Source: Phyto melanocephala
Lineage: Eukaryota > Arthropoda > Insecta > Diptera > Rhinophoridae
Length of the DNA stretch: 64,000 nucleotides
Direction of reading: 5' to 3'
NCBI GenBank assembly: GCA_941918925.1
Contig: OW799234.1
Location: forward strand, 76,094,543 to 76,158,542
Below the pieces are notes generated by a model, which was not told the origin of the DNA, made no database searches, and worked only from the letters and a program-made list of their open reading frames with translations. Position numbers and translations under genes: made by a program. The stretch's first letter is position 1. Each line of letters opens with the position of its first letter. Positions 3,771 through 61,830 of this stretch are shown in pieces.

Positions 3771-4541
3771 GTTTTAATATGAACTTTACAGTAGAAGCGT
3801 TTAAGTAGACGCGTCAAAGTAGTTTCTGTTAATAAATTCAACTTAGAGATTTCAATATAGTCCATAGTAAAATTATATAAATTTATGATAAAGCGTTATA
3901 TGAGACGTAGGCGTTAAACCGTCGACTAAAAACCTATAACTGCGAAATTTCATCACTATACCTCTAATTCTGTCGGTTTTATGAGCTTTTAAATTTCATT
4001 AATAGTAGATAACGTAAAAAGTGGGCGTTAAAGTAGGCGTGTCAATATAGGTTTTACTAATAAATACAGCTCAAATATTTTAATATTGTCCTTTAGTCTT
4101 TCAAAAACTGTGTCAATAGAAGAATTATATAAATTTGAGATAAAGCGTTATAGTGGGCATGTCGTATTAATTTACCGTTAGTACAAATCCATTTACCAAA
4201 AAGCAACGTTTGTAAAATTTCAGAGTCATACATCTAATTTTGCCAGTTTTACGTTTTTAATTTTAAACATACCGCAAAATACACTGTGCGATATTAATTT
4301 TTGTACATTTTGACTTTTCGTAAAGTATAGATTTGACAAATTTTCAGAAAAGATATTTTTTTTACTCAGGAAATATACGTTCGAAATTTTATCGCTCTAC
4401 GTCAATGCATTTAGACACAATTGCATTTTATTCAATGTTGAAAGGACATGGCTTTTTTGACCTACTCTTGCATTACCAGCTATAACTCTCTTCCCAATAT
4501 ACAGATTTACTCCATAAAATTATACTATGACTCGGAAAGTA

Positions 4542-5479
4542 CAGGGTTGCCCATATTCGACGGACCCATCTGGCAACGCCATAACTTTTGACAGAGATGT
4601 CAGATCGCTTAATGACATACCGCGTTTGAAGCGTCAGTCCAAGCAGATTTTTACCATGCAACAATACACGAGACGCGAGCGCTCTGAAATAGTTGAAATT
4701 TACATTCAACAGAACAAGTCAATTGTGAAAACTCAACGTGCTTTTAAAATATTAAAAAATGTGAGAAGTGCGCCTTCTAAGAACACCATTAAGCGTTTAT
4801 ACGAAAAATTTTCGACTGGTGAGGCTCTTTCTAATCCGAAGAGGCCAAATAAAAGTCGACCAAGGCGATCGGCCGAGAATATCGCTGCCGTACGAGCCAG
4901 TGTTGAGAGGTCCCCAAGAACATCCCAAAAACGCCGTTCTCAGCAGTTGGGCATGGCTCGGTCCACTTTACAACGGATTATTCGCGTTGATTTGCATTTG
5001 TTCCCGTACAAAATTCAATTGACGCAAAGATTGTTGCTCCACCGCACACAAGTCGCATAACAATCGATTTTCTGAAGAATTTGTTTCCGGGCCGTTTGAT
5101 GTCGAAAAGTGGTGATTTGGACTGGCCACCGCGTTCGCCCGATTTGACGCCGCCTGACTTCTTCTTGTGGGGATATTTGAAGTCAAAGGTTTACGTTAAC
5201 AAGCCAAGGACCTTAGAAGAGCTCAAGGACAACATTCGTGAACAAATAGCCGCTATTCCGGCCGAAATGTTGGCGAAAACGATGGAAAATGCTGCAAAAA
5301 GGGCACAATACGCCATCAACGCCAGAGGCGGCCATTTGAGAGATATCATATTCAAAAATTGATGTAAACAAATCTACTTGGAAAAAATTAAATGATTAAG
5401 ATTGCCAACCGCCAAATTTTTATTTTTTTCTTTGATTTTTTTAAAAAAAACATGGGTCCGTCGAATATGGGCAACCCTG
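4542..5479 (+). mobile_element. Mariner-like element, internally deleted, TA-flanked
   Basis: Perfect 26-bp terminal inverted repeats begin CAGGGTTGCCCATATTCG (4542-4567 and 5454-5479). Each end is flanked by TA (4540-4541 and 5480-5481), the usual Tc1/mariner duplication. At 938 bp it is several hundred bases shorter than an autonomous relative. The perfect terminal repeats suggest a fairly recent insertion. It lies inside an older X repeat. Confidence 0.9.
4656..5362 (+). pseudogene. Mariner-like transposase, deleted in the catalytic core
   Basis: The first open segment (ATG at 4656, to about 5035) encodes an N-terminal helix-turn-helix region: MQQYTRRERSEIVEIY, then a basic linker (RPNKSRPRRSAENIAAV), then the second helix-turn-helix (RSQQLGMARSTLQRIIR) and the start of the catalytic linker. 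An in-frame stop follows at about 5058. In another frame the C-terminus continues from about 5038 with APPHTSRITIDFL, SPDLTPPDFFLWGYLK (third catalytic aspartate) and a normal tail NARGGHLRDIIF, ending at 5362. The part holding the first and second catalytic aspartates is gone, so the protein cannot be active. The HTH part could still bind the element's ends if expressed, which is only an inference. Confidence 0.85.
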
Positions 5480-24640: not shown

Positions 24641-25119
24641 CTAAGAATAATTATGGGTAAATTTTTTTTTTGTCTTTTGTAGACGCAATTCTCTTTAATT
24701 ATTTAGTTATAAGAAACCATTAAAGTTTTATAAAGAGCCATACAACTTAACTTTTATGAAAACTTTATTTATGAACGTTTCTAAGCCATTAATAATTTTT
24801 ATGAAGACAGTCTAAAAATTGCATCAAAGATATTCTTCAAATAGATAAGAAATTGAAAAAAATTTAAATTGATTTAAATGTTTGCAATGTTTTCGTGTAC
24901 GTACAAGGAAAACAAATATTAAAATTTTTATAATTTAGTTTCTACATAAAATTATAGCAAGGAATTTAGATGGGCTCTAATTCATTTACTATTTTGTACT
25001 AATTCTACCAGTTCCAATCCCCAAAATCCCGGTCCCAAAAATCGCGGAATTTATTTTAAAAATCCCGTGACGTCCAGATTTTTTTCTAAATATTCATTTT
25101 CATTCACGTTTTAGAGAAA
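24641..25119. other. AT-rich non-coding stretch, nothing recognised
   Basis: No family similarity was recognised apart from the hAT relic that follows. The AAAATCCCGGTCCCAAAA-type sequence near 25020-25070 may belong to that relic. Confidence 0.4.
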
Positions 25120-25539
25120 CGGTCAGGTGATTTTTGTGTATCACTGTCTATTGCAATAATATATTTCACAATAGACGGAGCTTCTATAATGCTGCAAACC
25201 GGAAAAGTTATTACACCCAAGCAGCAACTATCTTTTGCACACGCAATTCATCTGGCAGTTACTGATATTTTATTCAACGGTTTTAGTTGTACAAAAGGAA
25301 ATGAAGCACCTTCATCAGATGATGATAATGACGATAACCATGACTTAATTGAGTTTTGGATCATTGAAACAAATAGCAATCTCACTGGTAAATTTCACAT
25401 TAAGCTTATTAGTCATAAAAGTTTAAAAAAATGTCGCCAAGAAGAAATGAGATTTTGCAAAGAGATGTTACAGAAGAAAACGAAAAAAAGAATTGAAACT
25501 TATTTTCAATTACAAAATAAGATGGAACACACTTCTTGA
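25120..25539 (+). pseudogene. hAT transposase relic
   Basis: From about 25150 the translation reads ...IIYFTIDGASIMLQTGKVI, then QQLSFAHAIHLAVTDILF, an acidic stretch SSDDDNDDNHD, and a basic tail. The block with D in FTIDGAS and the following C/H-type FAHAIHLAV segment is the pattern around the second catalytic aspartate in many insect hAT transposases (normally followed by CYAHGIQLAV or similar). Only this piece of the gene remains. The open part from 25189 is 116 codons, but it has neither the N-terminal BED finger nor the C-terminal dimerisation domain. Its ends were not found, so it is a fragment. Confidence 0.65.
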
Positions 25540-43827: not shown

Positions 43828-43967
43828 TACAGGGTGGACCAAAAGTCGTGCCTGCGTGTAAAAATTGAATAACTTTTTTGTTTATTATTAATTTTTATTA
43901 AATTTTTTTTTTAATTATAATATTATCTTTGTATGACCTAAATTTTAATTATGAAAAATAATGTCAG

Positions 43968-44146
43968 AGAGATGACCACCATTTTCATCGATGCACAATT
44001 GGGCTCTTAAGCAGGCGTTTTGCATAACTGCACGCAAGGTTTCAGGCTCTATTGCCCTGATCTCAGCTTCAATGTTGTTCTTTAGCTGCTCTATAGTTTG
44101 AGGCTTGTTTACATACACTCGTTCTTTGAGATAACCCCATAGAAAA
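43968..44146 (-). pseudogene. Mariner transposase C-terminal part (downstream of the insertion)
   Basis: The minus strand reads FLWGYLKERVYVNKPQTIEQ, then ENGGHLSDIIF, which is the complete C-terminal tail expected after the third catalytic aspartate. It is open throughout. It would directly follow SPDLTAPDY encoded at 47393-47420 once the inserted transposon is ignored, showing that this was one reading frame before the insertion. Confidence 0.85.
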
Positions 44147-44149
44147 TAA

Positions 44150-44797
44150 CACTAGGCAACAGCCATTTTGTTATTTGGTTCTAGCATACTTTTTCTCATG
44201 GATTTGGACCTACTGAACACGAAAATGAATTTTAAAAATTTTTCTGTCGATTGGTTTGCGAGATACAAATTTTTTAATTATTTTTTTTTAATTTTTGGAG
44301 GTACACTTACTATTTTGAGCATATCTTTAGTCTTCTTTGACCTATTTTATCCTACTACTACTCAAATTAAAGACAATTGAGCCGTCTACAACTTATTCTC
44401 AGAAAATTTTCAAATCGGGTTAGTAGTTTTGATGTTGGCGGCTTAAAAAGGTTAAAAAACTGGGTTTTTTTAGTAAAAATGTGGCTGAAAAATTCATATA
44501 AAAATTCATATAAAATATAAAACGCGATGTTAACAGCGATTTTAATTTTTTTACGTATAGCTGACACTTTTCCAAAGAAAATAAGCCCTTACTTAACAAA
44601 ATCTGATGACAAATGGCCGACTTATTATTTTTTTGGTAAACGACCGAAATTCCGCTATTTCACGATTTTTTGATTTTCATTATTTGCACAGCTTACCTAC
44701 CCAACGCAAACGAATAAATACATTTGAACTTAATTTAAAATAAACAAATTAGTCTTCGTATATTGTTTTTTAATTTATTTACAGCACTACATGCTCA
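44150..44797. repeat. Left long terminal inverted repeat of the CACTAGG transposon
   Basis: 648 bases reverse-complementary to 46733-47389. Differences seen by eye are a few changes in a T-rich run near 44280, one substitution near 44386 and one near 44765. The outer segment (44157-44178) is shorter than, and different from, its partner. It ends 98 bases before the transposase start codon, so the promoter probably lies in or next to this repeat (inference). Confidence 0.9.
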
Positions 44798-44895
44798 TAC
44801 ATATTTAAACATAAGGAGACACGGTTATCAATTGCATTTCAAAACTGTCTGTGAAAGTGTAAAGAAGTTAATATTTAGAAAACGCAAGGAAGACA

Positions 44896-46627
44896 ATGAG
44901 TAAAAGACTACGTGTGTTCGAGTGTTTGAACGATCCAGACAATTTCTGCAATGTTTGTGGCCAGTTTATAAAAAAAAATCACGCACACAAGTTTACTCCA
45001 GCAGTACAATTGCACTATTTGAATTATTTTGGTATTTCACCAAATATCACAGAACCATGGACACCTAAGTCGCTGTGTGATCTTTGCTATATAATCTTAA
45101 CCAACTGGGCAGCTGGCGGAAGGTAAGAATTTTTATTTAAACACATTATACATAGCGAATATAGTAATTTATTTTAATTTTAGCCGCCATATGAAATTCG
45201 ATACACCAATGATGTGGAAAAAGCCGCTATGCCATTCCACAGACTGTTATTTTTGCCTCACCACAAACAGTGGGGTAGAAAGATTTTTTAAATGGAACTA
45301 CGCTCAAGTGGGATCGTTTGCGCTTCCAGTACCACATTCGCATGATGTGCCATATCCAGTGTGCCCTGGTGCATCTCTTCAAAAAGCAGAATCGTCAGAA
45401 GAAGAGTCCGAGTCAAATGCAAGCGAATTTGAGCCGGGTGCAAAGCGAAAATTACTGTCACAGGCCGAACTAAACGATTGGGTGCGCGATTTTGGTCTCA
45501 CTAAGGAGAAAGCCGAACTTTTTGCGTCTCGGATGATACAGTGTGGATTTGCGGCTTCAGAAGTGAAAGTAACAGCGTACAGAAACCGTCACAAGGAGTA
45601 TGCAAAATTTTATACAAAGAAAGACCAAATATGTTTTTGCAGCGACATTTCAGGCTTGTTCCAAGAGCTTCACCAAATTCACAACCCCAACGAATGGAGG
45701 TTGTTTATTGACAGCAACAAAGAGAGCTTGAAGGCAGTTCTCTTACATAATGGGAATGAAAAGCCATCTGTTCCTATTGCTCATGCGGTTCATTCAAAGG
45801 AGAACTATGAAACTATGGACATTTTGCTGAAATGCATAGAGTATAGGAAATACAATTGGAAAATATGCGCCGACCTTAAAGTTGTGGCCATTCTGTGTGG
45901 ACTCCAAGGAGGCTATACGCGACATTGCTGTTTTCTGTGCCTTTGGAATAGCCGCGCTGATGATCAGCATTATATAAAAAAAAAATGGCCGGTACGAACG
46001 AAACCTGTAGTTGGAGAAGCGAATGTTCAGCGCAAACCACTAATAGAGAACCGTGAAAATATAATACTTCCGCCGCTGCACATAAAATTGGGTTTGATTA
46101 AAAATTTTGCCAAAAAATTAGACAAAGAAGGTGAAGGTTTTGCCTATTTACGGTCAATTTTCCCTTACCTTTCGCTGGCAAAAATTAAAGAAGGAGTCTT
46201 CGCAGGACCCGAGATAAAAAAAATTTTGAAAGATGAAAAATTCCCAAAGCTGTTATCACCCATCGAAGCCGCAGCATGGAATTCCTTCAGGCTTGTTGTG
46301 GAAAACTTTTTAGGAAACAACAAAAGCCCGAATTATAAGGACATAGTTGAGGATCTGGTAAAGAACTATGAAGCCATGGCAGTGCACATGTCACTTAAAA
46401 TACACTTTCTGCATTCTCATTTGGATTTTTTCCCTGAGAATTTAGGAGACGTGAGCGACGAACACGGCGAGCGCTTTCATCAGGAATTGAAGGCTATGGA
46501 ACGACGCTATCAGGGCATCTATGACACGGCTATGATGGGTGACTATATTTGGACCCTAATACGTGATACCGATTGCAGCGAATACAAAAAACAAAGAAGA
46601 AGTCAGCAGTTTTTCCACATGGCATAA
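44896..46627 (+). CDS. DDE-type transposase of the CACTAGG transposon, 556 residues, one intron
   Basis: The coding sequence joins 44896-45122 and 45184-46627 across a 61-base GT-AG intron (donor AG|GTAAGAA, acceptor TTTTAATTTTAG). The start ATG has A at -3. Splicing is in frame and gives 556 residues without stops. The N-terminus has a cysteine pattern, FCNVCG (C18, C21), CDLCY (C61, C64) and CHSTDCYFC (C92, C97, C100), probably a zinc-binding DNA-recognition region. An acidic linker (EEESESNASEFE) follows. The likely catalytic domain has D252 (LFIDSNKESLKAVLL), D306 (CADLKVVAILCG), C325 and C328 (HCCFLCLW), H483/H486/H488 (HFLHSH) and E502 or E505 (DEHGERFH). That order matches the CMC/Transib-type fold. 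The residue assignments are my inference; the family call is moderate. Confidence 0.85.
45123..45183 (+). other. Intron of the transposase gene
   Basis: 61 bases, starting GTAAGAA and ending in a T-rich tract plus TAG, with a possible branch point near 45160. The unspliced reading would stop at once (GGTAAG gives a TAA), while removal joins 75 complete codons to the 480-codon second exon in phase. Short AT-rich introns of this size are normal in flies. Confidence 0.85.
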
Positions 46628-46732
46628 AATGTACACTTATATCTTTGTTTTTACTCATTTTTTTTGTGCGTTGATTTGCTTAATTTAATTATTTAGTTTA
46701 ATTTCGTTAGTTTAGCTAATTGTGCGATACAT

Positions 46733-47389
46733 TGAGCATGTAGTGCTGTAAATAAATTAAAAAATAATATACGAAGACTAATTTGTTTATTTTAAATTAA
46801 GTTCAAATGTATTTATTCGTTTGCGTTGGGTAGGTAAGCTGTGCAAATAATGAAAATCAAAAAATCGTGAAATAGCGGAATTTCGGTCGTTTACCAAAAA
46901 AATAATAAGTCGGCCATTTGTCATCAGATTTTGTTAAGTAAGGGCTTATTTTCTTTGGAAAAGTGTCAGCTATACGTAAAAAAATTAAAATCGCTGTTAA
47001 CATCGCGTTTTATATTTTATATGAATTTTTATATGAATTTTTCAGCCACATTTTTACTAAAAAAACCCAGTTTTTTAACCTTTTTAAGCCGCCAACATCA
47101 AAACTACTAACCCGATTTGAAAATTTTCTGAGAATAAGTTGTATACGGCTCAATTGTCTTTAATTTGAGTAGTAGTAGGATAAAATAGGTCAAAGAAGAC
47201 TAAAGATATGCTCAAAATAGTAAGTGTACCTCCAAAAATTAAAAAAAAAAAATAAAAAATTTGTATCTCGCAAACCAATCGACAGAAAAATTTTTAAAAT
47301 TCATTTTCGTGTTCAGTAGGTCCAAATCCATGAGAAAAAGTATGCTAGAAACAAATAACAGACAAAGGTTTGTTATTTGTGACCTAGTG
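46733..47389. repeat. Right long terminal inverted repeat of the CACTAGG transposon
   Basis: 657 bases, partner of 44150-44797. The outer 40 bases contain their own small inverted repeat (CAAATAACA and TGTTATTTG, about 47353-47378) that the left end lacks. AATAAA at 46751-46756, 124 bases after the transposase stop codon, may serve as polyadenylation signal for the gene. Confidence 0.9.
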
Positions 47390-47392
47390 TAA

Positions 47393-47640
47393 TCAGGGGC
47401 AGTTAAATCCGGTGAACGTGCTGGCCAATTAAATTCTGAATTTTTCGATATAATTCGGTCGTCAAAAATTTCATTTAAAAGCGTCATTGTGGCACGGGCC
47501 GTGTGTAATTGGCGCTGGTGAACAACTCTGGGATTTGTAGTACCCCAAAATCGCATATTTTGTTCATTTACGTATCCATTTAGATGAAAATGTGCTTCAT
47601 CACTCATTATTAAATTGTTAAGAAATTGAGCGCCCATTGG
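47393..47640 (-). pseudogene. Mariner transposase part with first catalytic region (upstream of the insertion)
   Basis: The minus strand reads LIMSDEAHFHLNGYVNEQN, then RFWGTTNPRVVHQRQLH joined directly to TARATMTLLNEIF, then NWPARSPDLTAPDY. SDEAHF holds the first and SPDL the third catalytic aspartate. The join at QLH|TARATM marks an internal deletion that removed the second aspartate. The frame then runs into the CACTAGG transposon. The N-terminal helix-turn-helix region is missing. Confidence 0.85.
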
Positions 47641-47789
47641 AAAAGTAAAATTCTACCACTTTCGTTCGTCGTTAAATATTGCATGGTGGTGTAACACGAA
47701 TAAAATCTGAAAAAAAAATAAAAAATATTAAAAAAACAAAAAAGTTATTCAATTTTTACACGCAGGCGTGACTTTTGGTCCACCCTGTA

Positions 47790-61099: not shown

Positions 61100-61830
61100 A
61101 AAATATTTATTTATTTGTTTATTAATTTATTTATTTATTAATTTACTTATTTATTTATTTATTTTTTTAATTACAGTTTAATTATCCTTCATAAGAACAA
61201 GAGGAAACATATAAGTTAGAAAAAAAAAACACTTATTTATTTTCTCAATTAAAGTATAAGTTACAAAATAATAAAAAAAAAAATAGCTTAACAAATAATT
61301 TTAAAAATATGAAAATTTTTTAAATAAATCAAACAGATTTTACTTCACTATACATTTTTGGTAGCCAAGATTTGTGTAAGTTATGAAAACTTTGACCGGA
61401 ATTTTAAATACTATGGGACACATAGTCATAAAGTGCTTTTTGGAAACTGTTTTTTTCGAAATGATTTTAAAATGTGTCGGTAAAGAATTCCATAAATTAA
61501 TAGCGTTAACGAAAAATTGTCTGCTTGTATTAAGGTAGGTATGTCTGGGCAGAATTAAGGTTGTGGATCTAGAATATCTGCCAAAAACTAACTTTTCATA
61601 GAGATATAGATGCTTCCTCTGGTAGATCAGATTGTGTAAAAACAAAATATTGCGCATGCTAAGGTAACAGGCAAATCACAACCCAAAATCATTCTCCTCC
61701 ACGATGAGGCACTACTAAACCGAGACAGATTATATACGTAACGCGTAGCATTATAAAAAGAAACCTGTAACTTATGTAATGAATGTGAATCTAATCTACT
61801 ATAAACCAATGATATTTTATCAGTCTACTT
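61100..61830 (-). mobile_element. LINE (non-LTR retrotransposon) 3' end with TAAA-type tail
   Basis: On the minus strand a reverse-transcriptase C-terminal coding piece (61809-61340) is followed by a ~170-base untranslated part and then a run of AAATAAATAAATA-type repeats (61165-61100). Order and polarity are those of a 5'-truncated LINE with a microsatellite tail. No target duplication was delimited. Confidence 0.7.
61340..61809 (-). pseudogene. LINE reverse transcriptase C-terminal region, frameshifted
   Basis: The first frame gives SLHKLQVSFYNATRYVYNLS and ILGCDLP. After a frameshift near 61655-61660 the second gives MRNILFLHNLIYQRKHLYL, FGRYSRSTTLILPRHTYLN and RQFFVNAINLWNSLPTHFK. The pattern KLQ...N...RY, LRN...F.HNLI, SRS..L..PRH and FF.N....WNSLP is typical of the region after the reverse transcriptase core in jockey/CR1/Kiri-like LINEs. 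Everything upstream (endonuclease, RT core) is missing, so it cannot move. The clade was not determined. Confidence 0.75.

Follow-up and report, generated by a model that had tools for sequence, protein, structure and literature searches.

The transposon at positions 44150-47389 of a 64,000-nucleotide (nt) stretch of the fly Phyto melanocephala (contig OW799234.1, positions 76,094,543 to 76,158,542; hereafter the window) is very probably a full-length member of the two-exon Chapaev3 group, from a DNA transposon family that is young and high in copy number, here in an insect. Its copies combine long inverted arms with two unequal tips and an interior that is found in either orientation between them. 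We put the probability of this explanation as a whole, tips and flipping interior included, at roughly 0.83. The superfamily is already known and it is the structural variant that is new.

The element is 3240 bp long, starts with CACTAGG, finishes with CCTAGTG and is flanked by a TAA target site duplication (44147-44149 and 47390-47392), with an A immediately before the left copy and a T immediately after the right copy. These ends and the duplication had been reported in an earlier, sequence-only reading of this DNA, and both are seen here. When other copies were checked for differing borders or duplication lengths (40 places taken from a DNA search that scored 40 of 196 candidates, 39 of them complete at both ends), the same borders recurred, with identical 3-bp flanks in 37 of the 39. 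Tips included, the arms occupy 44150-44797 and 46733-47389. The left (L) tip (44150-44168, + strand) consists of CACTAGG and a 12-nt spacer and the right (R) tip (47361-47389, - strand) of CACTAGG and a 22-nt spacer, after which comes the block TGTTATTTG that starts the inner common part of the arms (44169-44797, + strand; 46733-47360, - strand). Past CACTAGG the tips, which extend to nt 19 on the left and nt 29 on the right, do not form mutual inverted repeats, and the common arm runs from nt 20 and nt 30. With the outermost 29 and 39 nt set aside, the arms align over 619 columns with 615 matches, three substitutions and one gap, and BLASTN gave 99.2% over 629 nt. The long near-identical inverted repeats described in the sequence-only reading therefore hold for this inner part but not for the outermost portions beyond CACTAGG, which are two distinct tips. 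Such repeats had rightly been flagged as unusual for the group, although a single copy could not reveal that the distinct tips are fixed or that the interior lies both ways.

The sole long frame within the element, on the + strand, encodes the transposase. Exon 1 (44896-45122), where the Cys-rich N-terminal region starts, and exon 2 (45184-46627, stop codon included), which holds the predicted RAG1/Transib-like DDE core, are separated by a putative 61-nt GT-AG intron (45123-45183). The spliced frame has 556 residues, from 75 full codons in exon 1, 480 in exon 2 and one split codon. Among 94 homologues of at least 530 residues, 93 extend into exon 1 and 85 of these align across the junction without a gap, which supports the 556-residue frame previously read across this intron. 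A protein search found 2528 relatives; of the 120 listed, five bear species names, all of them of insects. The exon 2 alignment comprised 109 of the 120 and the query (110 sequences), the 11 with lower exon 2 coverage being left out. The residues invariant in all 110 include, in exon 2 numbering and with window positions computed from it, the acidic residues D176 (45710-45712), D230 (45872-45874) and E429 (46469-46471), the pair C249/C252 (45929-45931 and 45938-45940), H299 (46079-46081) and the pair H407/H412 (46403-46405 and 46418-46420). The motifs are DDE with C(2)C, LH and H(4)H, of which only the L of LH varies, being nearly invariant itself. Bearing on the N-terminal Chapa zinc-finger domain of Chapaev3 are conserved Cys residues, found in exon 1 and in the early part of exon 2, and profile matches that all stayed below cutoff (Pfam zf-AD in 6 of 80 and RAG1_imp_bd in 1 of 80). 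Neither the transposase nor the scanned homologues had a Pfam or NCBIfam family above cutoff, and a sequence search of PDB chains gave weak matches only, to unrelated proteins. In its predicted fold, the transposase core is RAG1/Transib-like. No transposase relative was found in scans of viral and prokaryote contigs, and no arm fragment in the viral contigs.

The host genome that was searched comprises 740 Mb in 9 contigs. With up to three mismatches allowed, it has 133 matches to the L tip pattern, 136 to the R tip pattern and none to the reversed patterns. The family is a recent burst. In 37 copies the body diverges from the majority at 0-8 of 1935 bases (mean 0.17%), and an intact transposase frame with GT-AG is found in 25 of the 39 complete copies, in agreement with the recent origin that had been suggested for the window copy. 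In the 28 of 39 copies free of indels, the changes numbered 59 (non-synonymous), 21 (synonymous) and 3 (stop), as against 59.6, 19.5 and 3.9 expected for the same copies without selection. The copies drift after insertion, and the counts say nothing for continuing activity. Two sets of copies sharing the same broken protein match (orientations L-to-R (LR) in three and R-to-L (RL) in four, and LR in 4 of 4) were initially taken as non-autonomous lineages. In the members examined, the frame break is one A more or less in a ten-A run (nine in L048 and L058, eleven in L041 and L057), and since changes in the length of such runs can recur, nothing is drawn from these sets. The ten-A run lies inside the transposase frame at window positions 45976-45985, where the 9-A and 11-A versions found elsewhere shift the frame. 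In L038, a copy of 3923 bp, part of the body is present a second time in inverted orientation.

Assignment to the CACTA-Mirage-Chapaev/Transib group, with Chapaev3 as the branch using TWA (TAA or TTA) targets, had been proposed from the window copy and is supported by the motifs, by the target sites of the 39 copies and by the predicted fold when set against published Chapaev3 features. The flanks are an identical TAA or TTA in 32 of the 39 copies, leaving 7 without a matching TWA pair, and an A before and a T after the duplication are found in 36. The copies have CAC...GTG termini, and the transposase has the DDE, C(2)C, LH and H(4)H motifs and a gene that appears from its sequence to have two exons. 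As described in the available text of PMC4079192, Chapaev3 elements likewise have CAC...GTG ends, duplicate a TWA target lying between A and T and show the C(2)C, LH and H(4)H motifs, and the transposases of the Merrow and Garfield elements are encoded in two exons. The same text gives 556 residues for the Garfield_BM transposase, just as here, and exons of 78 and 484 residues for Merrow_PM, whereas the elements themselves are shorter (2,289 bp for Garfield_BM and 2,451 bp for Merrow_PM against 3,240 bp). The 650-nt arms, unequal tips and two-way interior of the present family were not found in the Chapaev3 descriptions that this text contains (PMC4079192), nor was an account of long arms, unequal ends or a flipping interior in Chapaev3 found in searches of the open-licence PMC literature.

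The pairing of the two tips is almost constant. One L and one R tip are present in 38 of the 39 complete copies, the remaining copy (L017) being R+R. At 20 further places, each picked by its L tip, 17 also had an R tip, all with matching duplications, and 3 had no second tip in the stretch. Tips were also paired by coordinates alone, using the best 100 of the 133 L places (all exact) and the best 100 of the 136 R places (at most one mismatch), which run from contig C1 to 96.6 Mb of contig C4. Among these listed tips there were 81 pairs, 81 of them L+R and none L+L or R+R, and 35 of the 197 tips used had no partner within 6 kb. Ten of these 35 fall in fetched loci; the opposite tip is present there with more mismatches in six (L024, L025, L037, L041, L047 and L052), and no second tip was found in L039, L045, L046 and L050. 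The R tip is identical in 37 of the 39 complete copies, the exceptions being the window copy, with a private base within 47361-47389, and L017. In L017 the left R tip has a net 10-bp deletion, which brings the two distances to GCATAC back to 34 and 44, the values seen in all 39 copies. The right end of L054, a locus with N and with an interior matching in both directions, has a second CCTAGTG with TTA 13 bp past the R end.

This pattern fits a paired-end rule of the 12/23 type, yet inheritance alone could yield it. Because an inversion between the arms preserves L+R automatically, simple inheritance is consistent with the constancy of the pairing. We lean slightly towards the explanation that L+R descends from a single founder, with unequal ends not being required for function and with gene conversion stopping where the arm match ends. 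A conversion spanning a tip would have to finish within the 7 common bases, and a T at L-arm nt 29, seen in 4 of 35 copies, may reflect conversion up to the tip edge; no tip-specific column switched type in the 35. Against inheritance stands L017, the sole R+R copy, which has no matching duplication (TTA on one side, TAA on the other) and in which the left R tip has been shortened to the L spacing. It is a single case, however, and its R+R state may have arisen after insertion. Also against it, the related ProtoRAG has unequal ends with a 27/31-bp spacing element, where the spacers here are 12 and 22, and does moderately better with mixed ends, its in vitro cleavage not being decreased with 3'/3' substrates, according to the available text of PMC8289069. 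It is less likely than not, though conceivable, that the 12/22-nt ends are a working paired-end rule, in which the Chapaev3 transposase would synapse a short-spacer with a long-spacer end, one helical turn apart, as RAG does with 12/23, and in which the arms would serve as an inversion cassette, turning the transposase gene round with L+R kept.

In the assembly the interior lies in both orientations relative to the tips, the 38 mixed copies dividing into 18 LR and 20 RL. A coordinate-based set that overlaps these copies gave 29 LR and 32 RL, with 61 of 89 protein-bearing places assignable. Recombination between the arms that flips the interior is the likeliest cause. The arm columns were compared in 35 copies, the R+R copy and three longer copies being left out. 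The L and R tips differ at every tip-specific column and the alleles at nt 128-129 mostly track the tip, while further in, all five instances of a 12-nt deletion at 339-350, which takes out one unit of a tandem pair, are found on the right body side; outer variants that track the tip and inner variants that track the body would come from crossovers inside the arms. Furthermore, the arms exchange within single copies, since private variants occur in both arms of the same copy in four cases (L010, L015, L029 and L033). Some points limit this reading: the informative sites are few, N is present in 2 of the 60 fetched loci (L039 and L054), and an assembly error would keep tips and flanks correct and invert the interior alone, and could therefore mimic flipping.

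It seems to us rather unlikely that a single ancestral flip was followed by parallel amplification of LR and RL masters, with no flipping now. The body phylogeny is star-like, with no shared sites beyond doubletons, similarity is slightly higher within orientation (permutation p 0.045), and the nearest neighbour has the same orientation in 22 of 37 copies, though one copy is the neighbour to most. On the other side are the exchange inside single copies and the alleles at L-arm nt 234, where T is found in 6 LR and 5 RL copies and C in 11 LR and 13 RL copies; their presence in both orientations would imply that the interior flipped again, that there was a further exchange or that the mutation recurred, and is suggestive only, this being a CpG site. 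That the pattern is an assembly artefact, with the interior arbitrarily placed between near-identical 620-bp arms, is very improbable, given that an assembly of 740 Mb with no more than 9 contigs probably used long reads and that derivatives with short arm matches, three cases only, also occur in both orientations (L043, 128 nt, LR; L055, 96 nt, LR; L059, 157 nt, RL; L037, with a short match but with arms long in pieces, was not counted).

From the RAG1/Transib-like predicted fold, we propose that the transposase would nick beside CAC, that hairpins would form in the flanks before the element is excised, and that its joining to the target would take place with a 3-bp stagger. The interior would be inverted by homologous recombination between the long arms, which would leave the tips unchanged. 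Since the arms are nearly the same in sequence, putative promoter and poly(A) functions could sit in either arm.

Transib elements duplicate 5 bp of target, in contrast to the 3 bp found here, while the RAG1-like catalytic core of Transib is predicted for the present transposase. A recombination signal sequence (RSS) nonamer was sought and is not supported, since the L tip region scores 4/9 at best, a value that 4558 of 5000 shuffles attain, and the R 7/9 (116 of 5000). Unequal tips are not known in Galileo or Foldback. These elements resemble the present family in having long inverted arms in a DNA transposon, and Galileo, of the P superfamily, is a precedent in that its long arms are atypical for its own superfamily; its transposase superfamily appears to be different, however, and its arms are internally repetitive (PMC3573991, PMC3688188 and PMC4168063, available text). 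The likeness to Transib, ProtoRAG and RAG1 lies in the predicted catalytic core and the CAC at the ends (PMC4411706 and PMC8289069, available text). The present family differs in its 3-bp TWA duplication, against 5 bp in ProtoRAG (PMC8289069, same text), its lone long frame and the lack of an RSS-like nonamer in the L tip.

The element was inserted into an older mariner-like element on the - strand, the parts of which lie at 43828-44146 (inverted end 43828-43911) and 47393-47789 (inverted end 47710-47789). Removing the element and one TAA in silico makes the mariner-type reading frame continuous across the joint. A relative of this interrupted element, a broken mariner-like transposase in two overlapping frames, is at 4518-5362. 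Open stretches at 25090-25539 and 61340-61675 presumably resemble a hAT transposase and the end of a LINE reverse transcriptase. An Rfam scan of the window gave no match at gathering scores.

The origin of the 12/23 rule of antibody-gene recombination is an open question on which this family could bear. Such a transposon, young, present in many copies and outside the Transib/ProtoRAG branch, with a core predicted to be RAG1-like and ends one helical turn apart, would allow a direct test of whether unequal ends are ancestral or have arisen twice. With the interior in both orientations, the family also offers many natural copies in which to measure inverted-repeat recombination and how it affects the direction in which the transposase gene is read relative to the ends.
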